A stretch of 32,533 bases of DNA from Alphaproteobacteria bacterium (GTDB taxonomy: Bacteria; Pseudomonadota; Alphaproteobacteria; Caulobacterales; Caulobacteraceae), in the NCBI GenBank assembly GCA_018895795.1, contig JAHINZ010000054.1:1-32533 (forward strand), in the 5' to 3' direction. This document shows positions 668-32,533 of this stretch, piece by piece. Position 1 is the stretch's first letter; every line of letters begins with the position of its first letter. A program made the position numbers and the translations under genes. Below the pieces are notes generated by a model. It did not search any database, was not told the DNA's origin, and saw nothing but the letters and a program-made list of their open reading frames with translations.

Positions 668-766
668 TCATCCCGGAAGCCTCGTAGAGGCTGTCCGGGA
701 CCCAGGGGAAACCGCACGGCATTGACCCCTGGGTCCCGGCTCTCCGCTTCGCTGCGACCGGGATGA
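668..766. repeat. Nested palindromic intergenic repeat (type A)
   Basis: Two inverted repeats are nested. The outer arms are TCATCCCGG (668-676) and CCGGGATGA (758-766). The inner arms are CCGGGACCCAGGGG (695-708) and CCCCTGGGTCCCGG (726-739). The element fills most of the gap between the GH3 gene and the esterase gene. It looks like a mobile REP-type intergenic repeat. The folded RNA could also act as a boundary for the GH3 transcript, but there is no T-tract. Confidence 0.8.
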
Positions 767-819
767 CGAGCTTTTTAGAACAAGAAACCGCTGTGCGGGC
801 GGTGGATAGGGAGTTCTCC

Positions 820-5783: not shown

Positions 5784-7163
5784 CTAGCGCCGCCGCCGCG
5801 CCACCAGCCCATAGGCCAGGCTGACCGCCAGCAGGAACGGTCCGCCCACGATCAGGGTCAGCCGGAAGGCTTCGGTGAACAGCGTGGTCACCAGCACCGC
5901 CGCCATCAGGCCGGCGCCCAGGAGACTGGTCCAGGGCGCGCCCCACATCCGGAACGGGCCGGGCGGGCCGGTGTCCTGGCGCCGAAACGCCACGTGGGTC
6001 AGGAAGATCATCAGCCAGGTGACCATCGCCCCGCAGGTGGCGATCGAGATCATCACCGTGAAGGCGGTGTCGGGACTGAACGTGAAGACCACGGCCGCCA
6101 CCGCCACGCCCAGGGCCGCGACGGCCAGCGCCTTGACCGGCACGCCCCGGCCGTTGAGCTGTCCAAACACGGTCGGCGCGAAGCCGGCGCGCGACAGGCC
6201 AAACAGCATGCGGGTGGCGGTGTAGAGCTGGCTGTTCATCGCCGACAGGGCCGCCACCAGGATCACGAAATTGACGACATCGGTCGCGCCGCTGATGTGC
6301 AGCACCTTGATCACGGTCACGAACGGGCTCTCGCCGGCCCCGGCCGAGGTCCACGGCACGATGGCCAGCATCAGGGCCAGGGAGGCGAGGTAGAACAGCG
6401 CCAGTCGGGCCAGGGTGGCCTTGAAGGCGCGGACGACGGCGCGTTGCGGATCGGCGGCCTCGGCCGCCGCCACGGCGATCATCTCGATGCTGAAATAGCT
6501 GAAGATGGCCAGGATCACCGCCACCCAGGTCCCCCAAAGGCCCTTGGGAAAGAAGCCGCCCTGGTCGGTATAGAGGTGGAAGCCCGCCCCCGCCGCCTGG
6601 GCGGCCGGCGAGCCGAACACCCAGATCGCGCCCAGCACGATGAAGCCGACGATGGCGACGATCTTGATCAGCGAGAAGGCGTATTCGACCCAGCCGAACA
6701 GGCCGACGCTGAAGGCGTTGACGGCGATCAGGGCGGCCGAGAAACCGATGATCCAGACCAGGCCCGGAACCTGGGGCAGCCAGACCTTCATATAGATGGC
6801 CACCGCCGTCACCTCCGTGCCGACGGCCAGGATGATGGCCGACAGATAGGCGTAGCGGATCAGATAGCCGGCGAACGGACCCAGATAGCGCTCGGCCTGG
6901 ACGCCGAACGATCCGGCCCCCGGATGGGCGGCGGTCATCTCGGCCAGGGCGCCCATCAGCAGCAGGGCGATCAGGCCGCCGATGGCGTAGCTGATCAGAA
7001 CGCTGGGCCCGGCCAGGCCGATGGCGAAGCCGCTGCCCAGGAACAGGCCCGTGCCGATCGCCCCGCCGATGGCGATCATCGACAGCTGGCCCGAGCTCAG
7101 CCCGCGCTTCAGCCCGGCTTCCCGCGCCGCCAAGGCGTCGATCGAAGGTCCCTTGGTGGTCAT
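5784..7163 (-). CDS. APC-superfamily amino-acid permease (AAT type)
   Basis: A 459-residue inner-membrane transporter with about 12 hydrophobic segments. It opens with the family signature LSMIAIGGAIGTGLFLGSG, followed by EMTAAHPGAGSFGVQAERYLGP in the second and third segments. These belong to the amino-acid transporter (AAT) branch of the APC superfamily, which imports amino acids with protons. It is the last gene of the kynB-kynU group and starts 23 bases after the kynU stop, with a G-rich ribosome site before ATG 7163. Co-transcription suggests import of tryptophan, kynurenine or another aromatic amino acid (inference). Sequence alone does not set the substrate; D-alanine, D-serine and GABA permeases look alike. 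Confidence 0.9.
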   Translation of the reverse strand: MTTKGPSIDALAAREAGLKRGLSSGQLSMIAIGGAIGTGLFLGSGFAIGLAGPSVLISYAIGGLIALLLMGALAEMTAAHPGAGSFGVQAERYLGPFAGYLIRYAYLSAIILAVGTEVTAVAIYMKVWLPQVPGLVWIIGFSAALIAVNAFSVGLFGWVEYAFSLIKIVAIVGFIVLGAIWVFGSPAAQAAGAGFHLYTDQGGFFPKGLWGTWVAVILAIFSYFSIEMIAVAAAEAADPQRAVVRAFKATLARLALFYLASLALMLAIVPWTSAGAGESPFVTVIKVLHISGATDVVNFVILVAALSAMNSQLYTATRMLFGLSRAGFAPTVFGQLNGRGVPVKALAVAALGVAVAAVVFTFSPDTAFTVMISIATCGAMVTWLMIFLTHVAFRRQDTGPPGPFRMWGAPWTSLLGAGLMAAVLVTTLFTEAFRLTLIVGGPFLLAVSLAYGLVARRRR

Positions 7164-7186
7164 GGTCGCCCCCCGGCGGTGCTCAT

Positions 7187-8419
7187 TCAGGTGACCGCCG
7201 CGCGGGCCGCATAGCGCGGGTCGTCCCAGGCGCGGGACGTCAGGATGTCTTTCAGGGCCTGCACGGCCCGCCAGACATCGACATAGCCCAGATACAGCGG
7301 CGTAAAGCCAAAGCGCATGGCGTCGGGATCGCGGAAATCGCCGATCACCCCGCGGGCGATCAGCGCCTGCATCACCGCATAGCCGTCAGGATGCGCGAAC
7401 GAGACGTGGCTGCCCCGCGCGGCGGGGTGGCGCGGCGTCAGCAGGGTCAGGCCATGGCCCGCGCAATGGGCCTCGACCCAGGTGATGAACAGGTCGCAGA
7501 GTCGCTGGGACTTCTCGGTCACCGCCGTCATGTCGGCCTCGAGGAACAGATCGACGCCGCACTCCAGCGCCGCCAGGCTGAGGATCGGCGGCGTGCCGCA
7601 CAGGAAGCGCTTCAGATCGGGGGCCGGGGCGTAGTCGTCGCTGAAGGCGAACGGCGCGGCGTGACCCATCCAACCGCTGAGCGGCGAGCGCAGGGTCGCC
7701 TGATGGCGCCGGGCCACATACAGGAAGGCCGGCGCGCCGGGGCCGCCGTTCAGATATTTGTAGCCGCAGCCGACCGCCAGATCGACGCCCGCCGCGCTGA
7801 GCTCCAGGGCCACCGCCCCGGCGCTGTGGCTGAGGTCCCACAGGATCATGCCGCCCCTGGCCTGCACCGCCTGGGTGACGGCCCGCAGGTCGTAGCGCTG
7901 GCCGGTCTTGTAGTGGACATGGGTCAGCATCACGATCGTCTCGGGCCCGGCGGCGGCGATGATCTCATCGCGCGGCAAGGCCCTGACCGAGACCGAAGGG
8001 TCCATCGCCGCTATACCCTGGGCGATATAGAGGTCGGTCGGGAAGTTGCCGGTTTCCGACAGGATGACCCGCCGCCCGGGCGCGGCCGTCAGGCCCGCCG
8101 ACAGCAGCTTGAACAGATTGACCGAGGTGGAGTCGGCGACGATCACCTCGTCGGCCTGCGCGCCGATCAGCCGCGCGATCTTGCCGCCCACCCGCTGCGG
8201 CGCGCCGATCCAGTCGGCGGTGTTCCAGCTGCGGATCAGGCCCTGACCCCACTCCTGGCGCATCACCTCGGCCAGCCGGGCCGGCGTGGCCGAGGGCAGG
8301 GCCCCCAGCGAATTGCCGTCCAGATAGAGCACGCCCGGCGGCAGGTCGAAGCGGTCCCGGAACGGGGCCAGAGGATCCTCGGCGTCCAGGCGCTGGGCGT
8401 CTTGCAGGTCCGGGATCAT
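7187..8419 (-). CDS. kynU: Kynureninase
   Basis: A cytosolic PLP enzyme (410 residues, normal length) that cleaves L-kynurenine to anthranilate and L-alanine. It has the kynureninase opening [31 protein letters not shown], and [13 protein letters not shown], which contributes to PLP binding. The PLP-contacting [10 protein letters not shown] (Asp195) and the Schiff-base lysine in [13 protein letters not shown] (Lys221) are present, as is the C-terminal [14 protein letters not shown]. Its ATG overlaps the kynB stop as ATGA (8416-8419), implying translational coupling. No tryptophan 2,3-dioxygenase (kynA) and no anthranilate-degrading genes are visible in the window, so the pathway must be completed elsewhere or use imported (formyl)kynurenine. 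Confidence 0.97.
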
Positions 8420-9051
8420 GGCAGGTCGCGCAGCACGGCGCGCACCGGCGAGGCGTCCAGTCCGGCCAGCCGCAGGGGCAGGGCGATCAGCTCATAGTCG
8501 CCGGCCGGAACATCATCCAGCACCAGGCCTTCCAGGATCCGCAAGCCGGCGTCGCGCACGGCCAGGTGGGCGTCCATGGTCTTGCTGTCTTCCGGATCCA
8601 GCGACGGCGTATCGACGCCGATCAGCTTGGCGCCGCGCGCCGCCAGCAGCCGGATGACGTCGGGCGCGATGGCCGCGAAGGCGCTGTCCCACGCCCCGTG
8701 CGGAAACCGCTCATAGGTGCGCAGCAGCACCCTCGGTGGCGCGCCGTCCAGGTGCGGCGCCAGCCGGTCGGCGGTGATCAGCGCGCCCCATCCGCGCGCG
8801 TCGACCACGCGGGCCGGGCCGAGATAGGCGTCCAGATCCACCGCGTCGATCGCCGCGCCGGCCGGATCATAGTGCAGCGGCGCGTCGGCGTGGGCGCCGC
8901 TGTGGGTCGACATCGTCAAGCGCGACACCGCCACCGGCCCGCCGTCATGGTCCCACACCCGCTGGGCGCTGAACGTCGTGTCGCCGGGCCAGACCGGCAG
9001 GGTCGCGGTCAGGGGCTGGGAGATGTCGCGAAGGGTCAGGAGGGGCTCCAC
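8416..9051 (-). CDS. kynB: Arylformamidase (N-formylkynurenine formamidase)
   Basis: A 211-residue metal-dependent hydrolase of the cyclase/KynB family that hydrolyses N-formyl-L-kynurenine to kynurenine and formate. The N-terminal [17 protein letters not shown] is typical. The zinc-binding motif [12 protein letters not shown] supplies His50, His54 and Asp56. The C-terminal [20 protein letters not shown] and a final [18 protein letters not shown] match bacterial KynB. The start is GTG 9051 with only a weak ribosome site. The gene lies 49 bases after the esterase gene and overlaps kynU by ATGA, so at least kynB, kynU and the permease form one operon. Confidence 0.96.
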
Positions 9052-10450: not shown

Positions 10451-11200
10451 CTAGATCGCCACGCGCTTGGCGATCGCGCTGCGGCGGGCGCTGGTTTCCT
10501 GCTTGGCCTTCTGGACCGCCTCGGTCTCGGTGGCGCTGAGCAGGTGCTCGATCACCCGCTCCAGATGGTCGCGCATGGCCTGGCGGGCGGCGGCGGGGTC
10601 GCGGGCCTTCAGGGCCTCATAGACCCGGCGATGTTCGTGGATGCGCGGCTCCAGCCCCATGCCGCGGGCCCGGGCCAGGATGTTGCGGGCCAGGGGCGAG
10701 CGGTTGCGCCAGTCCCACAGGTTCTCGATCGTGGCGATGATCGCGCCGTTGCCGGTGGCGCGGGCGATGATCATGTGGAATTCGCGGTCGGCGTCCTCGC
10801 CGGCGATCTCGTCTTCCTCGTGCATCCGCACCATCAGGGCTTCCAGCTGGGCCAGCTGGGCGTCGTCGATGCTGGTGGCGGCCAGGGCGGCGGCCTCGCC
10901 CTCGAACAGGCGGCGGGCCTCGATCAGCTCGAAGGCGCCGATCTCGAAGTCGATCTCGGCGGCGGGCGCTGCGGGGCGGACATCGCCGGTGACATAGATG
11001 CCCAGGCCGTGGCGGGCCTCGATCATGCCCAGCATTTCCAGGGCGATCATCGCCTCGCGCAGGGTGGGGCGCGACACCCCGAACTGCTCGGCCAGTTCGC
11101 GCTCGGTCGGCAAGCGGTCGCCCAGCTTGTACTGCCCGGCCTCGATGGCGTCGGCCACGGTGTCGGCGATACGGCGATAGAGCTTGACGTTATCGGCCAT
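10451..11200 (-). CDS. GntR-family transcriptional regulator, FadR subfamily (UxuR-like)
   Basis: A 249-residue DNA-binding regulator. The N-terminal winged helix (LYRRIADTVADAIEAGQYKLG, then ELAEQFGVSRPTLREAMIALEMLGMIEARHG, residues 7-70) is classic GntR. The C-terminal all-helical FCD domain (about 95-225) carries DREFHMIIARATGN, with the Asp and His expected to bind a metal and sense a small acid. FCD regulators of this type control hexuronate and other sugar-acid genes. It lies 122 bases after manD on the same strand, so it is probably in the manD operon. It is the best candidate to bind the TGGTCGGACCA-type palindromes found at 12654, 17369 and 29268, which fit the TNGTN3ACNA pattern of FadR-family operators (inference). 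Confidence 0.92.
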   Translation of the reverse strand: MADNVKLYRRIADTVADAIEAGQYKLGDRLPTERELAEQFGVSRPTLREAMIALEMLGMIEARHGLGIYVTGDVRPAAPAAEIDFEIGAFELIEARRLFEGEAAALAATSIDDAQLAQLEALMVRMHEEDEIAGEDADREFHMIIARATGNGAIIATIENLWDWRNRSPLARNILARARGMGLEPRIHEHRRVYEALKARDPAAARQAMRDHLERVIEHLLSATETEAVQKAKQETSARRSAIAKRVAI

Positions 11201-11322: not shown

Positions 11323-12534
11323 TCACCAATCGTGCATCGCGCCGTCCTCGCGGCGGGCGATCGGCAGATAGGCGCGCTTGTAGGGATGGGTGGCCGCCAG
11401 GGCTTCGTCGATGTCGACGCCGAGGCCGGGCGCGTCGCCCGGATACAGCATGCCGTCCGCGAAGGTGTAGCTGTGCGGGAACACCGCGTCGGTCTCGGGC
11501 GTGTGGCGCATATATTCCTGGACGCCGAAATTGGGGATCGACAGGTCCAGCTGCAGGGCCGCCGCCATGCTGACCGGCGACAGGTCGGTGGCCCCGTGGC
11601 AGCCGGTGCGCACATTGTGCAGCTCGGCGAAGCTGGCGATCTTGCGCAGATGGGTCAGGCCGCCGGCATGGACGACCGTGGCGCGGATATAGTCGATCAG
11701 CTGGTCCTGGATCAGGGTCTTGCAGTCCCAGATCGAATTGAACACCTCGCCCACGGCCAGGGGCGTGGTGGTGTGCTGGCGGACCAGACGGAAATTGTCC
11801 TGGTTTTCGGCCGGAGTGCAGTCTTCCATCCAGAACAGGCGGTAGGGCTCCAGATCCTTGCCCAGGCGGCCGGCCTCGATGGGGGTCAGGCGGTGATGGA
11901 CGTCGTGCAGCAGGTGGACGTCCCAGCCCAGGCGCTCGCGGGCGGCCTTGAACAGCTCCGGCGCGCTGCGCAGATATTTCTCGGTCGACCAGATGGTCTC
12001 CTTGGGCAGGTCGCTGTCGGCCGGTTCGTAGAAGAACTTGTCCTTGGAAACCCCGTAGGTCCCCTTGATCCCGGGCACGCCCGACTGCAGGCGGATGGCC
12101 TTGTAGCCCTGGGCGACATAGGCGGCGGCGTTGTCGAGGGTCTCCTCGATGGTCTCGCCGTTGGCGTGGCCATAGACCATCACGCCGGTGCGGCTGGCGC
12201 CGCCCAGCAGCTGATAGACCGGCAGGCCCGCGACCTTGCCCTTGATGTCCCACAGCGCCATGTCGACGGCGGCGATGGCCGACATGGTCACCGGACCGCG
12301 ACGCCAGTAGGCGCCCTTGTACAGGAACTGCCAGATGTCCTCGATCTGGTGGGCCTCGCGGCCGATCAGGCACGGAATGACATGCTCGGTCAGATAGGCC
12401 TCGACCGCCAGCTCGCGGCCGTTCAGCGTGGCGTCGCCGATCCCATAGGTCCCGTCCTCGGTGACGATCTTCAGCGTCACGAAGTTGCGCCCCGGGCAGG
12501 TCACGATGGTCTTGGCGGCGATGATCTTGGACAT
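11323..12534 (-). CDS. manD: D-mannonate dehydratase, enolase superfamily (ManD)
   Basis: A 403-residue enolase-superfamily enzyme converting D-mannonate to 2-keto-3-deoxy-D-gluconate in the glucuronate branch of xylan catabolism. Active-site residues known from the Novosphingobium ManD structure (Arg147, Tyr159, Asp210, His212, Glu236, Glu262) are all present, each shifted by one: Arg148, Tyr160, Asp211 and His213 (LLHDVHHR), Glu237 (FWMEDC) and Glu263 (AVGEVFN). The end reads DGAMHDW. The intact set argues for the high-activity ManD class rather than a promiscuous paralogue. It is transcribed divergently from the GH67 gene and is followed by the FadR-type regulator. Uronate isomerase and mannonate oxidoreductase, needed upstream in the pathway, are not in the window. 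Confidence 0.96.
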
Positions 12535-12636: not shown

Positions 12637-12664
12637 ATGGGTTGTCAACCATGAGGTCAGACCA
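12637..12664. promoter_or_regulatory. Tandem palindromes between manD and GH67 (candidate FadR/UxuR-type operator)
   Basis: GGTTGTCAACC (12640-12650) is a perfect inverted repeat, followed immediately by AGGTCAGACCA (12654-12664). The second shares GGTCnGACCAnTATGnG with the site before TBDR 1. The pair lies about 105 bases before manD and 220 bases before the GH67 start, so one regulator could control both directions. Confidence 0.55.
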
Positions 12665-12883: not shown

Positions 12884-15019
12884 ATGCGTCTGCTGATCGT
12901 GATGGGCCTGCTGGCCAGTCTGGCCTTCGCCCCCGTCGCCCGCGCCGAGGACGGCCATGATCTGTGGCTTCGCTATCGCCCGGTGGAGGCCGGCGCCGGC
13001 TATGGCGTCGCCGCCCTGGCGCCCGTCGCCCCCACCCCGACCCTGACGCTCGCTCGCGCCGAGTTGGCGCGCGGCCTGACGGGCCTGACTGGCGCGCCTC
13101 CGACCGCCGACGCCGGGGCCCGTGACGGCGTCATCCTGATCGGCACGCCGCAGAGCTCGCCGGCCATCGCCAGGCTGGTCCTGCCGCTGAAGGCCGCCGG
13201 CGACGAGGGCTATCTGATCCGCACCGTCAAGATCGACGGCAAGTCCGCCACGGTGATCGCCGCCAACCGCGACATCGGCGTGCTGTACGGCGTCTATCGC
13301 TATCTGGCCCTGATCCAGACCCGCCGGCCGGTCGACAGCCTGGACCTGGTCTCGGCCCCCAAGGTCCGCTTACGGATGCTCAATCACTGGGACAATCTGG
13401 ATCGCACGGTCGAGCGCGGCTATGCGGGCCAGTCGATCTGGGACTGGTGGAAGCTGCCCGGCTACAGCGCCGATCCGCGCTATGTCGACTATGCCCGGGC
13501 CAACGCCTCGATCGGGATCAACGGGACGGTGCTCAACAACGTCAACGCCAAGGCGCTGAGCCTGACCGCGCCCTATATAGCCAAGGCCGCGGCCCTGGCC
13601 GACGTGTTCCGGCCCTATGGCATCAAGGTCTATCTGTCGGCCCGCTTTTCCGCGCCCATCGAGATCGGCGGCCTGAAGACCGCCGATCCGCGCGACCCGG
13701 CCGTGGCGGCGTTCTGGAAGGCCAAGGCCGACGAGATCTACACGGCCATTCCCGACTTCGGCGGCTTCCTGGTGAAGGCCAATTCCGAGGGCCAGCCCGG
13801 CCCGCAGGACTATGGCGCGAGCCATGCCGACGGGGCCAACATGCTGGCCGACGCGCTGGGCCCGCACGGCGGCGTCGTGATCTGGCGCGCCTTCGTCTAT
13901 TCGCACGAGCAGCCCGATGATCGCGCCAAGCAGGGCTACAGCGAGTTCAAGCCGTTCGACGGCCAGTTTCGCGACAATGTGGTGATCCAGGTCAAGAACG
14001 GCGCGATCGACTTCCAGCCGCGCGAGCCGTTCCACCCGCTGTTCGGGGCCATGCCGAAGTCCAACCTCGGCATGGAGTTCCAGATCACCAAGGAATATCT
14101 CGGCTTCGCCACTCACCTGGTCTATCTGGGTCCGCTGTACGAAGAGACGCTGAAGTCCGACACCTACGCTCACGGCCAGGGCTCGACCGTGGCCAGGGTG
14201 ATCGACGGATCGCTGGATGGCCGCAAGCTGACCGCCATGGCCGGCGTGGCCAATATCGGCGCCGACCGCAACTGGAGCGGCTCGCAGTTCGACCAGGCCA
14301 ACTGGTATGTCTTCGGCCGCCTGGCCTGGGATCCCGAGGCCTCCAGCCGCGACATCGCCGCCGACTGGGCCAGGATGACCTTCAGCAACGACCAACGCTT
14401 CGTGACCCCGGTCGTCGACATGATGATGGCCTCGCGCGAGACGGCGGTCGACTACATGACCCCGCTGGGCCTGCACCATCAGATGGGCCGCAGCCACCAC
14501 TACGGTCCGGGTCCCTGGGTCAGCGGCGGCGAGCGCGCCGACTGGACCAGCGTCTATTACGCCAAGGCCGGTCCCGACGGCCTCGGCTTTGACCGCACGG
14601 CGACGGGCAGCAACGCCGTGGCCCAATATGCCCCGCCGGCGGCGGCCTGTTTCGCGGATCTGAAGTGCGTCGACGAGAAGGAGCTGCTGTGGTTCCACCA
14701 CCTGCCCTGGGACTATCGCCTGAAGTCGGGCCAGACCCTGTGGGACGGCCTGGTCACGCACTATTCGCGCGGCGTGGCCGGGGTGGGCGAGATGCAGAAG
14801 ACCTGGGCGGGCCTGACCCCCTATGTCGACGCCGAACGCCACGCCCAGGTCGCCGACTTCCTGACGATCCAGCACCGCGAAGCCCAGTGGTGGCGCGACG
14901 CTTCGGTGGCCTGGTTCCAGAGCTTCGCCAAGCGGCCGCTGCCGGCCGGCGAGGCGGCGCCGCCAGAGTCTCTGCACTATTATGAGAGCCTCAGCTTCCC
15001 CTACGCGCCGGGAATCTGA
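12884..15019 (+). CDS. aguA: GH67 alpha-glucuronidase
   Basis: A 711-residue GH67 enzyme, which removes (4-O-methyl)glucuronic acid from the non-reducing terminal xylose of short aldouronic acids. A signal peptide (MRLLIVMGLLASLAFAPVARA) points to the periplasm. The N-terminal domain includes EGYLIRTVKIDGKSATVIAA and GVLYGVYRYLALIQ. The barrel starts at RMLNHWDNLDRTVERGYAG. By comparison with Cellvibrio GlcA67A, the acid is Glu302 (KANSEGQPGPQDYG) and the base pair is Asp376 (NGAIDFQPREP) and Glu404 (ITKEYLG). The 376-404 spacing equals the 28 residues in Cellvibrio. The ATG follows GGGAG with 8-base spacing. Together with GH115 it covers both polymer-internal and terminal uronate decorations. 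Confidence 0.97.
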   Translation: MRLLIVMGLLASLAFAPVARAEDGHDLWLRYRPVEAGAGYGVAALAPVAPTPTLTLARAELARGLTGLTGAPPTADAGARDGVILIGTPQSSPAIARLVLPLKAAGDEGYLIRTVKIDGKSATVIAANRDIGVLYGVYRYLALIQTRRPVDSLDLVSAPKVRLRMLNHWDNLDRTVERGYAGQSIWDWWKLPGYSADPRYVDYARANASIGINGTVLNNVNAKALSLTAPYIAKAAALADVFRPYGIKVYLSARFSAPIEIGGLKTADPRDPAVAAFWKAKADEIYTAIPDFGGFLVKANSEGQPGPQDYGASHADGANMLADALGPHGGVVIWRAFVYSHEQPDDRAKQGYSEFKPFDGQFRDNVVIQVKNGAIDFQPREPFHPLFGAMPKSNLGMEFQITKEYLGFATHLVYLGPLYEETLKSDTYAHGQGSTVARVIDGSLDGRKLTAMAGVANIGADRNWSGSQFDQANWYVFGRLAWDPEASSRDIAADWARMTFSNDQRFVTPVVDMMMASRETAVDYMTPLGLHHQMGRSHHYGPGPWVSGGERADWTSVYYAKAGPDGLGFDRTATGSNAVAQYAPPAAACFADLKCVDEKELLWFHHLPWDYRLKSGQTLWDGLVTHYSRGVAGVGEMQKTWAGLTPYVDAERHAQVADFLTIQHREAQWWRDASVAWFQSFAKRPLPAGEAAPPESLHYYESLSFPYAPGI

Positions 15020-17186: not shown

Positions 17187-17518
17187 CTTCCGCCTTCCGG
17201 TCGATGCGTCCGCCGCGCGGATCCGAGCCGCCTCCCGCCGCCGCCCGTTCTCCCGCCCGCCGGGTTGGTATGACCTCGCCGCCCGGTTCCTCGGCAGGGC
17301 GGCGGCGCCGCGTCGCGCCAAGTCCCCAAAAGCCGGACCGTTACTGCAAAACCTCACTGGCAAAACATTGGTCGGACCAGTATGCGATTCCGAGGTATGA
17401 CCACGTTGACTTAAAAGGCCTTACCTCGTAACCGTCGAATCCTGTGACCGCTACCATCTATCGGCGGCGGTCAAACGACGAACGAGCGCGCATAGCGCCG
17501 TCTCACGGGGAGAGAAAC
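17187..17518. other. Intergenic/leader region before TBDR 1
   Basis: About 330 bases. The first half is GC-rich with no recognised gene; the 82-codon frame at 17187-17431 has no ribosome site and a low-complexity product. The second half carries the two palindromes annotated separately and a purine-rich ribosome site (GGGGAGAGAAAC) before ATG 17519. Confidence 0.6.
17369..17403. promoter_or_regulatory. Tandem FadR-type operator candidates before TBDR 1
   Basis: A perfect palindrome TGGTCGGACCA (17369-17379) is followed by the related AGGTATGACCA (17393-17403). Their centres are 24 bases apart, close to two helical turns. The first is identical to the site at 29268 and shares GGTCnGACCAnTATGnG with the manD/GH67 site. 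Confidence 0.55.
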
Positions 17519-22884: not shown

Positions 22885-24396
22885 TCAGCCCATCGCGTCG
22901 CAATTGGCCTTGATGAAATCGAGGTGGCTGGGCATCACCTCGGCCGACCGGGCGATCACCGCCTTGATCTCGGCCATCCGCCGGCGCAGCGCGTCGTTGC
23001 TCATCACGTCGACCATCGGGTCATAGCCCTTGGGCGCCAGGCCCTGGCCGACCATCACCGCGAACCACGAGGTGTCGTTGAACAGCTCCTCGTTCTCGCG
23101 GAAGATCCGGCCATAGCTTTCGAACACCGCGATCTTGTCGGCCAGATAGTCGGGGATCGCCATCTCGCGCAGATAGTCCCAGTAGGGCGTGTCGTTGCGG
23201 GTCGTGGCCTTGAAATGCAGGATCAGGAAGTCGCGGATCGTCTCATATTCGAACCGCATCACCCGGTTGTAGCGATCGATGTCGGGTCGGCGGAAATCGC
23301 GGTCGGGGAACATGGCCAGCAGTCGGGATATGCCCACCTGGATCAGGTGGATCGACTGGCTTTCCAGCGGCTCCATGAAGCCGGCCGCCAGGCCGATGGC
23401 GACGACGTTCTTGTTCCAGCTTTTCAGGCGGCGTCCGGCGGTGAACTTGATCAGCCTGGGATCGGCCAGGGGCTCGCCGTCCAGACGGGCCAGCAGATCG
23501 GCCGTGGCCTCGTCCTCGCTGATATGGGCGCTGGAAAAGGCGTAGCCGTTGCCCAGGCGATGCTGCAGCGGGATGCGCCATTGCCAGCCGGCCGGGCGGG
23601 CGGTGGCCCGGGTCACCGGGGCCCGCGAGCCGCCCAGGGCGCAGGGCACGGCCACCGCGCGGTCATTGAGCAGCCAGTTGGACCAGTCGTCATATCCCGT
23701 CTTCAGGGTCTGCTCGATCAGCAGGCCCCGGAAGCCCGAACAGTCGATGAACAGGTCGCCGGCGATCACCTGACCGCTCTCCAGCGTCACCGAGGTGACA
23801 AAGCCGGTCTCGCCGTTTTGCTGCACCGAGGCGATCTTGCCTTCCTGGCGGGTCACCCCGCGCGCCTCGGCATAGTCGCGCAGGAACTGGGCATAGAGGC
23901 CGGCGTCGAACTGGAAGGCGTAGGCGATCGATCCCAGCGGCGAATTGGCCTGGCCGTTGGGCCGCATGAACCTGCTCTGCCGCGCGGCGACGGTGTTGAG
24001 GGAATAGGCCCCCAGGTCATGGTCCTCGCCCATCGCCCGCAGCTTCAGCCAGTAGGCGTGGAACGACACCGCCTCCATGTCGACGCCATAGGGGCCGAAG
24101 GGGTGATGGTAGCTGTGGCCGATCTGCTTCCAGTCGACGAAATCGATGCCCAGCTTGAACGTCGCCTTGGTCTTGCGGACGAACTCGTTCTCATCCAGCC
24201 CCAGCATGCGGTTGAACATGTTGATCTGCGGGATGGTCGACTCGCCGACCCCGACCGTGCCGATCGCCTCGGACTCCACCAGGGTCACGCGGGTGCGGCC
24301 GTCCTTCAGGAAGCGGCCCAGGGCGGCGGCGGTCATCCAGCCGGCGGTGCCGCCACCGACGATGACCACGTGGTCCAGGCGATTGTCGATCTTCAT
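22885..24396 (-). CDS. Tryptophan-halogenase-family flavoprotein, copy 1
   Basis: A 503-residue flavin-dependent halogenase-family protein. The start is ATG 24396, because it overlaps the stop of copy 2 as ATGA; the track start 30 bases earlier lies inside copy 2. The FAD-binding [18 protein letters not shown] is followed by [11 protein letters not shown]. The lysine corresponding to catalytic Lys79 of PrnA is Lys81 ([14 protein letters not shown]). The WxWxIP signature is [17 protein letters not shown]. The region around PrnA Glu346 reads [13 protein letters not shown]: Glu is kept, but Thr348, which helps hold the halide, is Gln. Family members oxidise halide through a flavin hydroperoxide and need a separate flavin reductase, none of which is seen here. 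TBDR-linked members in Xanthomonas and Brevundimonas prefer free indoles and bromide; the natural substrate is unknown. Confidence 0.92.
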
Positions 24397-25910
24397 GCGG
24401 TCTTCTCGAATTGCGGCGCCGCGCAATAGCGGGCGATGAAGGCTTCGTGAGTCGGTAGGGCCTGCGCGGTCTGGCGCACCAGCGCCGCCAGGCGTTGCAG
24501 TTGGCCGCGCACCAACTGCTCGTCCAGGCTGTCGACCAGCGGGTCATAACCGCGCGGGCGGATGTTCTGGCCCAGCAGCACCGCCAGCCAGCTGGGTTCG
24601 GCGAACAGGTCGTAGTCCGACTGGAACAGGCGTCCGCGCGCCGCGAACAGCTCGATCTTGCGCTGCAGGCTCTCGGGGATGGCCATGTCGCGGGCCTCGC
24701 GCCAATAGGGCTCCGGGCGGTCGTTGGCCTTGAAGTGCAGGATGATGAAGTCGCGGATCAGCTCGGTCTGCAGCGTCGTCAGGCGATTATATTCGGCGAT
24801 CTCGACGGGGTCGAAACCCCGGTCGGGGAACAGGGCCAGCAGCTTGGTGATGCCGGTCTGGACCATGTGGATGCTGGTGCTTTCCAGCGGCTCCAGAAAG
24901 CCCGACGACAGGCCGATGGCGACGCAGTTCTTCACCCAGGCCTGCTTGCGCCGCCCGGCCTTGAAGCGGATGACGTTCGGCTCGGCGCGGGCCGGGCCGT
25001 CCAGGGTGGCGCGCAGGCGGGCCAGGGCGTCCTCGTCGCTGATATGGCGGCTGGAATAGACATAACCGTTGCCGGTGCGGTGCTGCAGCGGGATGCGCCA
25101 GCGCCAGCCGGCCGTATCGGCCGTGGCGCGGGTATAGGGCGTCAGGCCGTCGCCGCCGGTCTGGCAGGGCAGGGCCACGGCGCGGTCATTGGGCAGCCAA
25201 TGGCTCCAGTCCTCGAAGCCGGTGTCCAGCGCCTGTTCGATCAGCAGGCCGCGAAAGCCCGAGCAGTCGATGAACAGATCGGCCTCGATCTCGTGCCCGC
25301 CGTCCAGGGTCACCGAACGGATGAAGCCGTCTTCGCCACGCAGCGCCACGTCCACCACCCGGCCTTCGCGGCGGACCACGCCGCGCGCCTCGGCATAGGA
25401 CCGCAGATAGCGGGCATAGAGGCCGGCGTCGAAATGGAAGGCGTATTTCAGGCTCGACAGCACCTGGCCGGGGTCCTTGCTGGGCAGCATGAACTTGCCC
25501 ATCCGCGCCGCCGTGGCCGACAGGTTGAAGTCGTCGATCGGCTGTTGCGAGCCCTCGCTGCGCGCCTTCAGCCAGATCTGGTGGAACTTCAGGGCCTCGA
25601 TATCCAGGCCAAAGCCGCCGAACGGATGCAGGTAGCGCGAGCCGGGCCCGGTCCAGTCGACGAACTCGATGGCCAGCTTGAAGCTGGCCTGGGTGGACCG
25701 CATGAAGTCGGCTTCGTCGATGCCCAGGATCTGGTTGAAGGTGGTGATCGGCGGGATGGTCGCCTCGCCGACCCCGACCGTGGCGATGGCGTCGCTCTCG
25801 ACCAGGGTGATCTCGACGCCCTTGAGCACCTTGGCCAGCGTCGCCGCCGTCATCCAGCCGGCCGTGCCGCCGCCGACGATCAGCACCTTGCGGATGGGGT
25901 TGGGGGTCAT
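24393..25910 (-). CDS. Tryptophan-halogenase-family flavoprotein, copy 2
   Basis: 505 residues, ATG 25910. It carries the full set of family motifs: [29 protein letters not shown], the catalytic-lysine region [14 protein letters not shown] (Lys78), [35 protein letters not shown] and [14 protein letters not shown] with both Glu and Ser-Thr of the halide site intact. By motifs it is a catalytically competent halogenase-type enzyme. It is separated from copy 3 by about 190 bases holding a long palindromic repeat, while its stop overlaps the start of copy 1, so copies 2 and 1 are translationally coupled. Its ribosome site is weak. Confidence 0.94.
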
Positions 25911-25939
25911 GGGCGTGGAGCCTCAAGGGGCAGGCTGAT

Positions 25940-26086
25940 CCTTCTCCCCTTGCGGGAGAAGGTGGCGACCGCAGGTCGACGGATGAGGGGTTGAAGGTGT
26001 TGTCCGGCGCGCTCAGCCAGATTGGGAACGCGGGCGCGACCCCTCATCCGGCGCTGCGCGCCACCTTCTCCCGCAAGGGGAGAAGG
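25940..26086. repeat. Long palindromic intergenic repeat (type D) between halogenase copies 2 and 3
   Basis: Perfect 28-base inverted arms occur at 25940-25967 and 26059-26086 (outer part CCTTCTCCCCTTGCGGG). Inside them is a second perfect pair, CGGATGAGGGGT (25980-25991) and ACCCCTCATCCG (26039-26050). The 147-base element has the shape of a small non-autonomous mobile repeat. It lies inside what looks like a single operon and could form a strong RNA hairpin that uncouples copies 4-3 from copies 2-1. Confidence 0.9.
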
Positions 26087-26102
26087 GAAGATGGTGAGCC
26101 GC

Positions 26103-27608
26103 TCAGGCATCGGTCATCCCAACTTGGGCCAGCGCCTGTTCATGACTCGGCAGCCCCTCCGCGGTCTGACGAAAGATCGCCTGCATGCGCTCCAAGGTCG
26201 CGCGCATTCGGTCCAGCGGCATCCGGTCGGCCAACGGATCATGGCGGACCGGCAGCACCCCGTGGCCGATGAAGGCGGCGACCCAGCTGGGTTCGAGGAA
26301 GGTCTCCTCGTCATACATCACCACCCGGCCGCGGCTTTCGAACTGGGCGATCTTGTAGGCCAGAGCCTCGGGCGTGGGGGCGTCGCGGCCCAGGTCCCAG
26401 ATCGCCCCGTCGCGCCGGCCGGATCGGCGATAGTGCAGGATGGCCATGTCGCGCATCCGCTCGATCATCGCCGCGCCGAGGCGGTTATATTCCTGCGCCG
26501 CCGCGGGCCCGTCGCCGGGACGCGGGAACAGGGCTATCAGCCGGGTGACGCCGCTCTGGATCAGGTGCAGGTCGGTGGCGTCCAGCGTCTCGATCCCGCC
26601 GGCCGCCCCGCCGATGGCCACACAGTTGCCGACCCTGGCCCGGGCCCGCCGGCCGTTGGTCAGGGTCCGGAATTCCGGCTCCGAACGGCCGTCCTCCGCC
26701 AGGCCGCGGCTCAGCGCCTCCAGCGCCGCCGCGTCGTCGGTCAGGTCGGCGCGATAGACCAGGCCGCTGTCCAGGGCGCCTTGCAGCGGGATGCGCCAGA
26801 GCCAGCCCTCGGCGACCGCCTCGATGTCGGTCAGGGGCGCGGCGACGTCCGGGGCCGGGGCGGTCAGCCGCACCGCGCGGTCGCCCGGCAGCAGGCTGGA
26901 CCAGTCCTCGAACGGCTCGTCCAGGGCCTGGCCGATCAGCCGGGCGGCGGGGCCGGTGGCGTCGACATAGAGCTCGGCCTCGACCCGCTCGCCGTCGGCC
27001 AGCGCCACGGCCGCGATGTCGCCGGTCACGCCGTCGCGGATCACCTGCGCCACCGCGCCGCGTTGCGCCTCGACGCCGTGGCTCAGGGCCAGGTCGCGCA
27101 ACACGCCGGCATAGAGCCCGGCGTCCAGGTGAAGGCCATAGGTCAGGGTCGACAGGGGCGAGCGCGGATCGGGGCTGGGCGGCGCGAACCGGCCCAGGTC
27201 GGCGGCGACGGCCGCCAGGTTGAAGACGTCCAGCGGGGCGCTGTCGCCGGCCTGACGCAGGCGGGCCCAGTAGTGGTGGAATTCCACCCCCTCGAGCCGG
27301 GCTCCGATCTCGCCGAAGGCCTCGCAATGGCGCGCGCCGGGCGTCCAGTTCAGGAACCGAGAGCCCAGCTTGTAGGTCGCCCGCGTGGCGGTCATCAGCG
27401 CCGCCTCGTCCAGGCCCAGCAGGGCGTGGAACGAGCGCAGGGCGGGCAGGGTGGAGCGCGCGCCGCTGGCCTCGGGCCCGGTCTCGACCACCCGGATCGC
27501 GGCCCGGCCGCCGGTGGCCCGGGCCAGGGCGGCGGCGGTCATCCAGGCGTCGATCCCGCCGCCGATGATCGCCACCCGGCCCAGCGGGAGGGGGCGTCCG
27601 GACCTCAT
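26103..27608 (-). CDS. Tryptophan-halogenase-family protein, copy 3, with degraded active-site motifs
   Basis: 501 residues. The start is ATG 27608, which overlaps the stop of copy 4 as ATGA. The fold is clearly that of its neighbours ([33 protein letters not shown] with Lys80 kept), but several signatures are lost. The FAD loop GGGTAGW reads GGGIDAW. The GVGEATIP loop is replaced by ASGARSTLP. The EPLESTSI halide/catalytic segment reads IETLDATDL, so the catalytic Glu is Asp and the following Ser is Ala. The QHR.GNGYVY strand reads [10 protein letters not shown]. The frame is intact with no stop, so this looks like a diverged paralogue under selection rather than a pseudogene: possibly a non-halogenating flavoprotein, a partner subunit or a binding protein. 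Function unknown. Confidence 0.88.
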
Positions 27609-29134
27609 GCCACCGCCCGTGCGTCGCAATGGGCGCGGATGAAGGCCTGGTGGTCCGGCATCGACTCGGCCGTGCGCCGCACCGCCGTCTTCAGCTCGGA
27701 CAAGGCCCGGGCCGCTCGGACCGGATCGATGGCGTCGGTCATCGGGTCCAGACCTTGCGGCAGGATGTTCTGGCCCAGATAGACCGCCAGCCAGGAGGGC
27801 TCCAGAAAGAAGCCGTCGCGATATTTGACGATCATCCCCCGGTCGCGGAACAGGTCCATCTTGTAGGCCAGGCTGTCAGGGATCGGGGCCGCCCGCCGGT
27901 CGATCCAGAACGGCGAGTCGTCGCGCTGGGTGGCGTGGTAGTGCAGCACCAGAAAGTCGCGGATCCGCTCGAACTCCAGGTCCATGACCCGGTTATATTC
28001 GTCCTGGTCGGCCTGGGCGCAATCGCGCTGCGGGAACAGTTCCAGCAGGGTGGTGACGGCCAGCTGGATCAGGTGGATGCTGGTCGACTCCAGCGGTTCC
28101 AGGAAGCCGCTCGACAGGCCGATGGCCACGCAGTTGCGGTTCCATTGCTTCTTGCGGCGGCCGGTGACGAACCGCAGGAAGCGCGGATCGGCCTGGGCCT
28201 TGCCGTCCAGCTTCGAGACCAGCACCCGGGCCGCGTCGTCGTCGCTGATATAGTCGCTGCAATAGACATAGCCGTTGCCGACCCGGTGCTGCAGCGGGAT
28301 GCGCCAGCGCCAGCCTGCCGCATCGGCGGTGGCGCGGGTATAGGGCGTGGGCGGCTCGACCGCGTCGCAGGGCACGGCGGCGGCACGGTCGCAGGGCAGC
28401 CAGCGGCTCCAGTCCTCATAGCCGGTGTGCAGCGCCTGTTCGATCAGCAGGCCGCGAAAGCCCGAACAGTCAATGAAGAGGTCGCCCTCGATCCTCTGGC
28501 CGCTTTCCAGGGTCACGGCCTCGATGAAGCCGTCCTCGCCGCGCAGGCTGACGTCGACGATCTTGCCCTCCGTGCGCCGCACGCCGCGCGCCTGCGCATA
28601 GGCCCGCAGGTACAGGGCGTAGAGGCCGGCGTCGAACTGGTAGGCGTATGAAAAGGTCGATCCCAGCGACCGTGGGTCGGGCGAGGGCGGCGCGAACCGG
28701 TTCAGGCGCGCCGCCACGATCGGCAGGCTGTAGGCCTCGATCGGATCGGCTTCGCCGCGCGCGTTCGCCCGCAGCCAGTGCTGGTGGAAGTCGACCCCGC
28801 CGATCGGCTGACCGAAGGCCCCGAACGGGTGGATATAGCTCTCGCCCTGGCGGCCCCAGTCGCGGAACTCGATGCCCAGCTTGAAGGTCGCCTGGGTCTT
28901 GCGCATGAAGTCGGCCTCGTCGAGGCCCAGCTTGGCGTTGAAGCCGCGGATATGGGGCACGGTGGCCTCGCCGACCCCGACCGTGCCGATCTCGGCCGAC
29001 TCGATCAGGTCTATGGTCAGGCGAGAGTCGGCCAGCACGGCGCTGAGGCCGGCGGCGGCCATCCAGCCGGCGGTTCCCCCGCCGACGATCACGATCTTCC
29101 GGATCGCGCCGTTCCCCATCATCTCCTCCGCCAC
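27605..29134 (-). CDS. Tryptophan-halogenase-family flavoprotein, copy 4 (first gene of the cluster)
   Basis: 509 residues from GTG 29134, preceded by AAGGGA at good spacing; ATG 29122 or 29119 are alternatives. All key motifs are present: [29 protein letters not shown], catalytic lysine Lys85 in [49 protein letters not shown] and [14 protein letters not shown]. It resembles copy 2 most closely. It is divergent from TBDR 2 across a 374-base region and is followed by copy 3 through an ATGA overlap. A link between TBDRs and halogenase-like genes is a known feature of Caulobacterales and Xanthomonas, where the substrate has not been established. Confidence 0.94.
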
Positions 29135-29267: not shown

Positions 29268-29278
29268 TGGTCGGACCA
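29268..29278. promoter_or_regulatory. FadR-type operator candidate TGGTCGGACCA
   Basis: A perfect 5-1-5 palindrome, identical over 11 bases to the one before TBDR 1 (17369). It lies about 135 bases before halogenase copy 4 and 230 bases before TBDR 2. Confidence 0.5.
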
Positions 29279-29464
29279 TCGGGGAGATCGTCGGGGCCGG
29301 GGGGCCTGAAGCGGGTGTGTCGCACAGACGGCATGCGCTCCGTTGCTCCCTATCCCGCGCCGCTCTCCTCGCATGGCTACGTGAAGCGGGCCCTCGTGGC
29401 AACGCTTGACAACAGGGTTGCAGTCAGATGATCTGACCAACAATGGTCACGGTAACATGACCAA

Positions 29465-29478
29465 TGGTAGCGCTAACG
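29465..29478 (+). promoter_or_regulatory. XylR/LacI-type operator (xyl-box) before TBDR 2
   Basis: TGGTAGCGCTAACG matches, as I recall it, 13 of 14 positions of the xyl-box TGGTAGCGCTAACA described for XylR control in Xanthomonas, and resembles the Caulobacter xylose operator. It lies 31 bases before the TBDR 2 ATG, where a bound repressor would block transcription. No LacI-family gene is in the window, so the repressor would act in trans. Confidence 0.65.
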
Positions 29479-29508: not shown

Positions 29509-32500
29509 ATGGGCTCTGTCCAGAGGTCGTTCGCGCAGCGCGGACGCAATTCATTCATGTCCGGACTGACATGCGGCGTTTCGGCCGTGGCGCTGAGCGC
29601 CGCGCTGTTCGCCGTTCCGACATTCGCCCAGGCCCAAACCAAGGCCAAGACCGATGACTCGGCCGTCGTCGACGAGGTCGTGGTCACCAGCATCCGCCAG
29701 AGCCTGAAGAGTTCCCAGGCCCTGAAGCAGTCGTCGGACATCATCGGCGACTCCATCACCGCCGAAGACATCGGCGCCTTGCCCGACCGGTCGGTGACCG
29801 AGGCCCTGTCGCGCGTGCCCGGCGTGTCGATCAACCGCTTCGCCGCGGGCGTCGACCCCGACCACTTCTCGACCGAAGGCAGCGGCGTCGTCGTGCGCGG
29901 CTTGAACTTCGTGCGCTCCGAGCTGAACGGCCGCGACAGCTTCACGGCCAATAACGGCCGCGGCCTCAGCTTCGCCGACGTGCCGTCGGAACTGCTGGGC
30001 GGCGTCGACGTGTTCAAGAGCCCCTCGGCCGATCTGATCGAAGGCGGCATTTCGGGCACGGTCAATCTGCGCACCCGCCTGCCGTTCGACAGCAGCAAGC
30101 GCATCCTGTCGCTGTCGGCCGAAGCCAGCTATGGCGACATGGTCAAGACCTGGAAGCCGACCTATTCGTTCCTCTACAGCGACCGCTTCGACACCAGCAT
30201 CGGTGAATTCGGCGTCCTGGCCAGCCTGGTCGACTCCAAGCTGGAAACCCGCAGCGACGCCATCCAGGTGTCCAACTTCGGTTGCCGCACCAATCTGGGC
30301 ACCGCCACCGCCGATTGCGGCAATGGCACGAAGGGCGTGTGGTTCCCGCGCGGCGCGGCGTTCCGCTCCACCAACACCGACCGCGAGCGCAAGGGCCAGG
30401 CGGCGGCCCTGCAATGGAAGAGCAATGACGGCACGATGCTGGCCGCCTTCCAGTATCTGCGCTCGGACTCGACCAGCAACACCACCGAACATGCGATGGA
30501 AATCGCCACAGACAACGTCGCCAGCAACGGCGACTCGCGTCCGGTGGCCGGCACCAGCTTCACGTTCGACAACAGCGGCGTGTTCACCGACGGCGTGATC
30601 ACCGGCACGACCGGCTGGCGCTCCGACCAGAACGGCGCCGATCCGCGCACGCCGATCGATGGCCTGCAGTCCAACAACATCCGTCGCGACGAACAGAACT
30701 CCAACGTCACGTCCGACTACGGCTTCAACTTCAAATGGACGCCGAACGACCAGTGGGGCTTCCAGTTCGACGCCCAGCATGTCGACTCCAAGGTCGATGT
30801 TCTGAGCATGGGTATCTGGGCCTCCACCTTCCAGAACGCGGCGATCACGCTGCACGGCGATGATCTGCCGACCGTGCTGTTCTCGGCGCCCTCGAACGGC
30901 CAGACCCAGTCCAACTGCCTGCCCTACAACAACAATTGCCCGTCCTACGACCGGGGCATGCACAATAATCTGAGCGACCCGTACAACACCTTCTGGCGCT
31001 CGGCGATGGACCACATCGAGCAGTCCGAAGGCACCGAGGACGCGGTCAAGTTCGACGTCGAATACAAGTTCGCCGGCGACACCTGGTTCGACTCCGTCAA
31101 GGCCGGCGTGCGCTGGGCCGAGCGCGATCAGACCACCCGGTTCTCGACCTATAACTGGGGTGTCTTGAGCGAAATCTGGGGCGAAGGCGGCCCCGTCTGG
31201 CTCACCGACAAGATCGATGGCGTGCCGAGCGCCGGCGGGTCGGGCCTGCCCGGCACGACGGGCGTCGACAGCACCGGCCGCGCCCAGCTGGACGGCTTCG
31301 CCAATTTCATGCGCGGCCAGACCCCTCTGCCGACGGGCACGGAGTCGCGCCTGTTCTACGGCGCCAACACCGCTGAAAACTACAAGGCGGCGTCGGACTT
31401 CGCCCTGTCGGTCGGCGACGAATGGCGGGCGCGCAACGGCGCCAATGGCTGCCCGCAGAACTGGGTGCCTCTGGCTCAACGCTGTAATGTCATCGCCGGC
31501 TCGCCCTTCCTGCCGCAGGAAATCAACCCGGTTAACGAGGTCAACAAGGCCGTCTATCTGGTGTCGCGCTTCAAGGGCGACGTCGGCGCGGCCCGCGTCA
31601 GCGGCAATATCGGCGTGCGCTATACGGCCACCCGCCGTCAGGCCGATGGCTTCCAGGCCTTCCCGAACACCAACTTCGCCACCGACGCCTCGTGCGCCGT
31701 CGTGCCCGCGGGCCAGACCGCGACGCCGTTCTGTCTGTTGACCCCCGCTGTTCGGGCCGCGGCCCGTCTGTGGGCCAATGGCGCGGTGACGCCGGTCACG
31801 GCCAATGCCGACTTCAACTACTGGCTGCCCAGTTTCAACCTGAAGGTCGTCATGCCCGGCGGCCTGCAATATCGCCTGGGCGCGTCCAAGACGGTCACGC
31901 CGCCGGATATCGGCCTGACGCGCAACTATTATAACCTGTCCCTGAACACCAACGCCGACGGCATCAGCAACGGCCGGCCCAGCGGCAATGTGACGGTGGG
32001 CAATCCGTACCTGAAGCCCACCCAGTCGACCAATCTCGACGCCTCGGTGGAGTGGTATTTCGCCCCGGTCGGCTCGCTGACCTTCGCGGCCTTCTACAAG
32101 GAGCTGACCGACGTCGCGACCAACACCACGGTGCGCAAGCCGTTCACCAACAACGGCGCCACGTTTGATGTGATCACGACCCAGCCGGGCAATTCCGACC
32201 AGAAGGCCAAGGTCAAGGGCTTCGAAATCGGCTACCAGCAGTTCTATGACTTCCTGCCCAAGCCGCTGGACGGCTTCGGCATCAACGCCAACTACAGCTA
32301 CATCGAGAGCAGCGGCGTGCCGCAAAGCACGCTGTCGGCGACCGACCCGGACGTGGCCGCCGGCCGCGTCACGACGGTCGACACCAGCAAGCTGCCGCTG
32401 CAGGGCCTGTCCAAGCACAACGCCAACTTCGCGGCCATCTATGAGAAGGGCCCGATCTCGGCCCGTCTGGCCTATAACTGGCGTTCGGACTTCCTGCTGA

Positions 32501-32533
32501 CGGTCCGCGACGTGATCGTGCCCTATGCGCCGA
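29509..32533 (+). CDS. TonB-dependent receptor 2 (3' end outside window)
   Basis: This open frame of 1008 codons is absent from the ORF track because no stop is reached; the frame was checked at several points and stays open. ATG 29509 follows GGGGAGG at 8-base spacing. The signal peptide (CGVSAVALSAALFAVPTFAQAQ) is followed by a TonB box (SAVVDEVVVTSIRQSL). The plug has ALPDRSVTEALSRVPGVSINRF, GVVVRGLNFVRSELNGRDSF and GGVDVFKSPSADLIEGGISGTVNLRTRLPFD, followed by barrel strands. It resembles carbohydrate-type TBDRs of Caulobacter and Xanthomonas. A xyl-box directly upstream argues for xylose-linked induction and xylo-oligosaccharide uptake (inference). The barrel's last strands and terminal aromatic residue lie beyond the window. 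Confidence 0.95.
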   Translation, partial: MGSVQRSFAQRGRNSFMSGLTCGVSAVALSAALFAVPTFAQAQTKAKTDDSAVVDEVVVTSIRQSLKSSQALKQSSDIIGDSITAEDIGALPDRSVTEALSRVPGVSINRFAAGVDPDHFSTEGSGVVVRGLNFVRSELNGRDSFTANNGRGLSFADVPSELLGGVDVFKSPSADLIEGGISGTVNLRTRLPFDSSKRILSLSAEASYGDMVKTWKPTYSFLYSDRFDTSIGEFGVLASLVDSKLETRSDAIQVSNFGCRTNLGTATADCGNGTKGVWFPRGAAFRSTNTDRERKGQAAALQWKSNDGTMLAAFQYLRSDSTSNTTEHAMEIATDNVASNGDSRPVAGTSFTFDNSGVFTDGVITGTTGWRSDQNGADPRTPIDGLQSNNIRRDEQNSNVTSDYGFNFKWTPNDQWGFQFDAQHVDSKVDVLSMGIWASTFQNAAITLHGDDLPTVLFSAPSNGQTQSNCLPYNNNCPSYDRGMHNNLSDPYNTFWRSAMDHIEQSEGTEDAVKFDVEYKFAGDTWFDSVKAGVRWAERDQTTRFSTYNWGVLSEIWGEGGPVWLTDKIDGVPSAGGSGLPGTTGVDSTGRAQLDGFANFMRGQTPLPTGTESRLFYGANTAENYKAASDFALSVGDEWRARNGANGCPQNWVPLAQRCNVIAGSPFLPQEINPVNEVNKAVYLVSRFKGDVGAARVSGNIGVRYTATRRQADGFQAFPNTNFATDASCAVVPAGQTATPFCLLTPAVRAAARLWANGAVTPVTANADFNYWLPSFNLKVVMPGGLQYRLGASKTVTPPDIGLTRNYYNLSLNTNADGISNGRPSGNVTVGNPYLKPTQSTNLDASVEWYFAPVGSLTFAAFYKELTDVATNTTVRKPFTNNGATFDVITTQPGNSDQKAKVKGFEIGYQQFYDFLPKPLDGFGINANYSYIESSGVPQSTLSATDPDVAAGRVTTVDTSKLPLQGLSKHNANFAAIYEKGPISARLAYNWRSDFLLTVRDVIVPYAP

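Follow-up and report, generated by a model that had tools for sequence, protein, structure and literature searches.

The window analysed here, a 32,533-nucleotide contig (JAHINZ010000054.1, assembly GCA_018895795.1) of an alphaproteobacterium of the Caulobacteraceae, carries four tandem genes, hal1 to hal4, which encode flavin-dependent halogenase (FDH) family proteins of about 500 residues, all on the minus strand. One of them, hal3, probably encodes a conserved pseudo-halogenase, apparently dead as an enzyme, and its gene directly follows that of the intact paralogue hal4 in loci from two bacterial orders. Judging from this pattern, hal4 and hal3 very probably form a functional pair. The hal3 partner is what is new here; the other three genes simply add new members to the halogenases of the BrvH/Xcc4156 kind. 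An earlier reading of the same DNA, the original prediction, had singled out the four genes as a possible undescribed system; it had marked one copy as short of a motif, but not as a conserved, apparently inactive partner.

Motif loss in hal3 and its pairing with hal4

All four proteins (501–505 residues) are full-length members of PF04820, scoring 671 (hal1), 667 (hal2), 442 (hal3) and 677 bits (hal4) against a cut-off of 21, which bears out the prediction of four complete paralogues of about 500 residues. The GxGxxG motif and the flavin adenine dinucleotide (FAD) segment GVGE(A/S)T(I/V)P are present in hal1, hal2 and hal4. Three copies had been said to keep the catalytic Lys, WxWxIP and EPLES; this holds for EPLES, which among the four only hal3 has lost (it reads ETLDA), but the Lys (equivalent to PrnA K79) and WxWxIP are kept in all four, and hal3 also lacks the FAD loop, reading A-SG-ARSTLP in its place. 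The first gene of the operon, hal4 (positions 27605–29122, or to 29134 with a GTG start; 505 residues), encodes an intact BrvH-like FDH with the Lys, WRWRIP and EPLEST. hal2 (24393–25910; 505 residues) encodes an intact BrvH-like halogenase with every motif kept, as does hal1 (22885–24396; 503 residues) with EPLESQS for EPLESTS. This Thr-to-Gln exchange is constant in the hal1 orthologues examined and, lying at a presumed halide-site residue, could give hal1 a different chemistry.

In hal3 (26103–27608; 501 residues), the last Gly of GxGxxG is lost (GGGIDAW) and the catalytic Glu equivalent to PrnA E346 is an Asp. An alignment that includes 2jkc, the PrnA E346D entry, puts Asp343 of hal3 in the corresponding column, with Lys80 kept. 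Across hal3 orthologues, the acidic residue at the E346 position is D, N or G, the Lys and WxWxIP are lost in some, and the FAD-loop motif is absent in every hal3-type protein examined. One Caulobacter clade has a shortened form of 364–393 residues. The AlphaFold model of the window protein retains the FDH fold (predicted local distance difference test score (pLDDT) of 93.9), with template-modelling (TM) scores of 0.93 to BrvH and Xcc4156; the 393-residue form is also predicted to fold (pLDDT 88.6) without the strands that carry WxWxIP. The intact fold, together with the Lys, WxWxIP and Asp of the window copy, would be compatible with Hal3 being an enzyme of some other chemistry, either flavin-independent or using flavin in another mode, rather than a pseudoenzyme. 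We regard this as improbable, given that no replacement catalytic set is conserved, that orthologues lose the Lys, WxWxIP and the acidic residue in differing ways, and that the short forms dispense with the strand region bearing WxWxIP. By ancestry hal3 is a PF04820 member, but it does not match two of the defining functional motifs and so should not be called a halogenase; it is probably a non-catalytic FDH paralogue.

We examined how closely hal3 is tied to hal4 in a tree of 88 proteins and in a second search. Because the loci in the tree had first been found through hal3, the second search was run with hal4-type queries alone, against 401 genomes of two orders, and retained the best 60 loci, one per genome; about 10 of these 60 genomes had supplied query proteins and about 50 were new. 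A hal3-type gene lies directly downstream of the hal4-type gene in 60/60 loci, and the downstream protein lacks the FAD-loop motif in 60/60 and EPLES in 59/60. In the tree, the hal4 clade (20 rows, support 96/98) comprises exactly the active genes that directly precede a hal3-type gene, compared with 0/47 of the other active FDHs (Fisher 1.7e-17). Absence follows the same rule: five Caulobacter loci (L070, L072–L075) have the TonB-dependent receptor (TBDR) gene TBDRa and hal2- and hal1-type genes and lack both hal3 and hal4, and hal3 without hal4 was never seen in the loci examined. The sole exception to pairing that was seen is a complete Caulobacter genome, G003, in which hal3 is split into two frames (L069:8789-10010) and hal4 is intact. 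Within the tree, hal3 and hal4 give like groupings of the loci, and their pairwise identities correlate (Spearman 0.61), with shared ancestry contributing. hal3-type proteins also occur in Sphingomonas, Sphingosinithalassobacter, Erythrobacter, a Lysobacterales metagenome-assembled genome (MAG) and a gammaproteobacterial MAG.

In the 88-protein tree, hal3-type proteins form a single clade at 100/100 support on long branches. We do not claim a single origin from this, as a topology that joins them to the hal4 clade was not rejected (p-AU 0.35), and an origin of hal3 by duplication of hal4 is possible from the tree. Two further arrangements were observed. The gammaproteobacterial MAG (L053 / L093) carries an active-dead-active-dead-active operon with two hal3-type genes, with GH10 and sugar-transporter genes alongside. 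In addition, three TBDR loci (L079:10102-11667, L085:7444-9012 and L089:7204-8751) hold degenerate halogenase-like proteins of another, distinct clade, and each has an intact halogenase as well; L089 also has SapC and Cupin_8 (confirmed by Pfam), and genes of the corresponding sizes are present in L079 and L085.

hal3 shows the marks of a maintained pseudoenzyme, combining enzyme homology and conserved loss of catalytic residues with an open frame and a conserved neighbourhood. Its pairwise ratios of nonsynonymous to synonymous substitution (dN/dS) are 0.22–0.42, compared with 0.08–0.34 for hal1, hal2 and hal4, so selection on hal3 is weaker but clearly purifying. The higher ratio, along with the shortened clade, the split copy in G003 and the loss of hal3 in several Caulobacter, is what would be expected if Hal3 were a decaying duplicate, what is left of a fourth halogenase that has no role and whose frame stays open through chance or polarity. 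We consider such decay quite improbable: hal3 is present in all 60 sampled genomes of two orders, its dN/dS lies well below 1, its residues 421–440 are as conserved as those of the active enzyme (0.87 in hal3, 0.89 in hal4), and where it is absent from the loci examined, hal4 is absent with it.

Receptor clade and variable glycan neighbours

As predicted, the halogenase genes are divergent from a TBDR gene. This gene, TBDRa (29509–32533, plus strand, truncated by the contig end), scores 750 bits to TIGR01782 (TonB-Xanth-Caul). The association extends beyond the window. The source genome (3.84 Mb in 494 contigs) has ten PF04820 genes across six contigs, and a TBDR lies near a halogenase on each of the six, the window counted. 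G003 encodes 22 TIGR01782 TBDRs, and 5/5 of its FDH loci have one of them within ~2 kb; in a second genome, G636, 4/6 FDH loci adjoin such a receptor. On a tree of TBDRs, the receptors beside hal clusters fall into one clade of 18 (support 100) that spans Caulobacter, Sphingomonadales and the gammaproteobacterial MAG, and the label 'linked' changes 5 times on this tree compared with 16.2 times in shuffles. Three of the 18 receptors (L013, L076 and L077) have other intact FDHs as neighbours, with no hal3 present.

Next to the clusters, the glycan genes vary. They include GH10/GH43 (xylan), GH9/GH1, GH20 with UTRA/GntR, an FGGY kinase with LacI, and Gfo/Idh with a xylose-isomerase-like gene. One receptor clade accompanied by such varied glycan genes makes a xylan-specific aromatic substrate unlikely, and the substrate of the halogenases is likely to be tied to the receptor rather than to xylan. 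The original prediction had offered modification of an aromatic decoration of the plant cell wall as one role, and the idea that the four halogenases modify such a decoration on xylan or lignin fragments imported by TBDRa draws on the GH67, GH115, GH10 and glucuronyl-esterase-like context and on the shared operators described below. This role does not fit the wider set of loci, in which the same hal4/hal3 cluster and TBDR clade stand beside GH20 with UTRA/GntR, FGGY kinase with LacI, or Gfo/Idh genes, and we think it has little chance of being correct.

The halogenases are part of a sugar-uptake locus of the polysaccharide-utilisation type, a glucuronoxylan locus of a Caulobacter, with TBDRs, glycoside hydrolases (GHs), a sugar regulator and common operators. 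It encodes a SASA esterase and GH115 (763–5777, plus strand), a GntR/FCD regulator (10451–11200, minus strand), a mandelate racemase/ManD-like gene of the enolase superfamily (11323–12534, minus strand) and a GH67 alpha-glucuronidase (12884–15019, plus strand), as well as GH3, a chemoreceptor, a second TBDR (TBDRb) and a hybrid histidine kinase. In orthologous loci a GH10 xylanase follows TBDRa, and one such locus also has a glucuronyl-esterase-like gene. Of the named matches, Caulobacter sp. 32-67-35 and Caulobacter sp. HMWF025 come closest, with 82–88% protein identity for hal1, hal2 and hal4.

Operon structure and shared operators

The original prediction arranged the genes as two pairs, 4-3 and 2-1, each joined by an ATGA overlap. 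The overlaps are present, at 27605–27608 (hal4 stop, hal3 start) and 24393–24396 (hal2 stop, hal1 start), both on the minus strand, but the split between the pairs is secondary. The 190-bp gap between hal3 and hal2 houses a dispersed inverted-repeat element (25940–26086) with perfect 28-bp arms. Across the genome this arm pattern is matched 57 times, compared with 0 for a reversed control, and many of the copies occur as facing pairs ~100–130 bp apart. In the closest relatives (loci L046 and L058), hal3 and hal2 overlap by ATGA. The ancestral state was therefore probably a single coupled operon, hal4-hal3-hal2-hal1, and we do not read the 4-3 / 2-1 arrangement as a division of function, since the dispersed repeat accounts for it. 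At 26/30 junctions from an active to a dead gene in other loci, the stop lies in an ATGA or GTGA.

Operator-like sites common to the halogenase and xylan genes, noted in the original prediction, were found again and recur in other loci. The pattern TGGTCNGACCA is matched exactly at 29268 and 17369, and the copies at 12654 and 29429 each differ from it at one position. The exact palindrome TGGTCGGACCA lies between hal4 and TBDRa (29268–29278) and upstream of TBDRb (17369–17379), the mismatched copy AGGTCAGACCA between the ManD-like gene and GH67 (12654–12664), and a second operator-like stretch (TGATCTGACCA / TGACCAACAATGGTCA, 29429–29449) in the hal4/TBDRa region. Within the window the four matches are a modest excess over the 1.16 expected, 4 of 100 shuffles also reaching four. 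Conservation adds to this count: operator sites recur at the hal4/TBDRa and ManD/GH67 promoters in other Caulobacter, exact TGGTC[A/T]GACCA sites stand at the GH67/ManD promoters of orthologous loci, and L058 and L068 retain the site found here at 29429. Because the sites recur at the same promoters across Caulobacter, the halogenases are probably part of the glucuronoxylan regulon in Caulobacter, with the GntR/FCD regulator as the candidate reader of the operator. Separately, the TBDRa promoter holds a LacI-like palindromic core, TGGTAGCGCTAAC (29464–29478), present in one copy in the window.

Known halogenases and a proposed mechanism

The closest solved sequences to hal1–hal4 are BrvH (PDB 6FRL), Xcc4156 (PDB 6Y1W) and 9LUQ. 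BrvH comes from Brevundimonas BAL3 (PMC5945002), where its gene adjoins a second FDH gene, and Xcc4156 from Xanthomonas campestris (PMC7336383). Both have open substrate sites, accept indoles, are reported to prefer bromide and reject free tryptophan, the last of these setting the closest relatives of the hal genes apart from biosynthetic tryptophan halogenases; a peptide substrate has been proposed for enzymes of this type, their native substrate not being known (PMC5945002, PMC7336383). Neither paper gives a native role, in keeping with the prediction that the role of the family beside TBDRs is unestablished. The window cluster shares the EPLESTS-type motif, with Ser after Thr, and differs from the BrvH and Xcc4156 systems in including hal3, which lacks the FAD-loop motif and catalytic Glu; no pseudo-halogenase partner is described in these two papers. 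Nor was a description of such a partner, or of TBDR-linked halogenases, found in the open literature searched, a search that left subscription papers mostly outside.

Relative to PrnA, RebH, PyrH and Thal, the likeness extends to the fold, PF04820 and, for hal1, hal2 and hal4, the catalytic Lys and Glu, but the bit scores are about half those to BrvH and Xcc4156 and no biosynthetic cluster is present at the window. In line with the original prediction, the genes identified in the window include no flavin reductase, resistance or scaffold-building gene and do not make up a biosynthetic halogenase cluster. Three Flavin_Reduct genes lie elsewhere in the genome, on other contigs.

A further possibility is that the cluster makes a small halogenated signal or inhibitor of the indole type, released or imported with the sugar regulon. 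BrvH brominates indole in vitro, but with an activity so low that its authors came to doubt indole as the native substrate (PMC5945002). Within the xylan region of the window, an amino-acid permease, a kynureninase and an arylformamidase lie on one strand (5784–9051), a tryptophan-breakdown set that could be read the same way. In the other Caulobacter loci examined, the cluster does not have these kynurenine genes as neighbours, and we set them aside as incidental rather than as a tryptophan-supply link; scaffold-building genes are also missing. An indole-type product is thus unlikely.

A comparative-genomics paper of 2010 reportedly predicted a peptide-modifying role for TBDR operons with SapC, Cupin_8 (JmjC-like) and a tryptophan halogenase. 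The loci studied here resemble these in that an FDH adjoins a TBDR, and some of them unite the two types, as L087 does with hal4/hal3 and Cupin_8; the window cluster, in contrast, has no SapC or Cupin_8 and has the hal4/hal3 pair instead. QhpG and LodB are flavoproteins that modify or mature protein-bound tryptophan. They show weak local matches to hal1, hal2 and hal4 and set a precedent for flavin enzymes acting on protein residues, but all scores fall far under the curated cut-offs and the hal proteins are not members of these families.

We propose that the four genes, in the order hal4-hal3-hal2-hal1, make up an old operon that encodes cytoplasmic FDHs and goes with one TBDR clade. Hal1, Hal2 and Hal4 would probably be working enzymes of the BrvH/Xcc4156 type, their reduced flavin (FADH2) supplied in trans by flavin reductases encoded elsewhere in the genome. 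Hal3, co-produced with Hal4 probably through translational coupling, would most likely be a non-catalytic subunit of a Hal4:Hal3 complex that serves in substrate holding, docking or regulation. A crystal dimer is common to tryptophan-type halogenases (PMC7336383); Hal3 perhaps replaces one half of the usual FDH homodimer, or docks on Hal4 in another way. Induced together with the glycan regulon, the set would modify an aromatic group of a large substrate, of which the foremost candidate is a peptide or protein in the pathway of the receptor, and this might be the TBDR itself prior to export. Taken whole, a catalytic/non-catalytic Hal4:Hal3 pair in a TBDR-coupled pathway is our best explanation, held tentatively and at slightly less than even confidence. 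That the two proteins form a physical complex is an evenly balanced call. As for the substrate and its chemistry, we infer a peptide or protein only as a doubtful first choice, and the most specific version, in which aromatic residues of an outer-membrane receptor or pathway peptide are halogenated (or flavin-oxidised) by an obligate heteromer of Hal4 and a dead, substrate-presenting Hal3, is a long shot.

Several observations weigh against this proposal. The Lys, WxWxIP and Glu-to-Asp exchange at the E346 position of the window hal3 may leave weak activity. The ATGA overlap is not peculiar to hal4/hal3: 20/23 stops between active genes have such overlaps too, and many loci couple all four genes in this way. 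The evolutionary rate of hal3 exceeds that of the neighbouring genes, and since hal3 is shortened in one Caulobacter clade, split in G003 and missing in some genomes, it is not essential. In one locus with the cluster, L048, no TBDR was detected within the ~20 kb examined. TBDR-specific aromatic residues were considered as modification sites and discarded as too few: among 17 positions, only W524 and W531 (982-residue numbering) are specific to the clade.

BrvH-type halogenases are widespread beside TBDRs, and the literature examined does not give their native substrate. A strictly paired inactive partner could explain why enzymes of this kind seem weak or promiscuous in assays of the single protein. 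If the partner alters activity or targets a protein, the pairing would define a class of receptor-linked halogenation and would give enzymologists a missing subunit.

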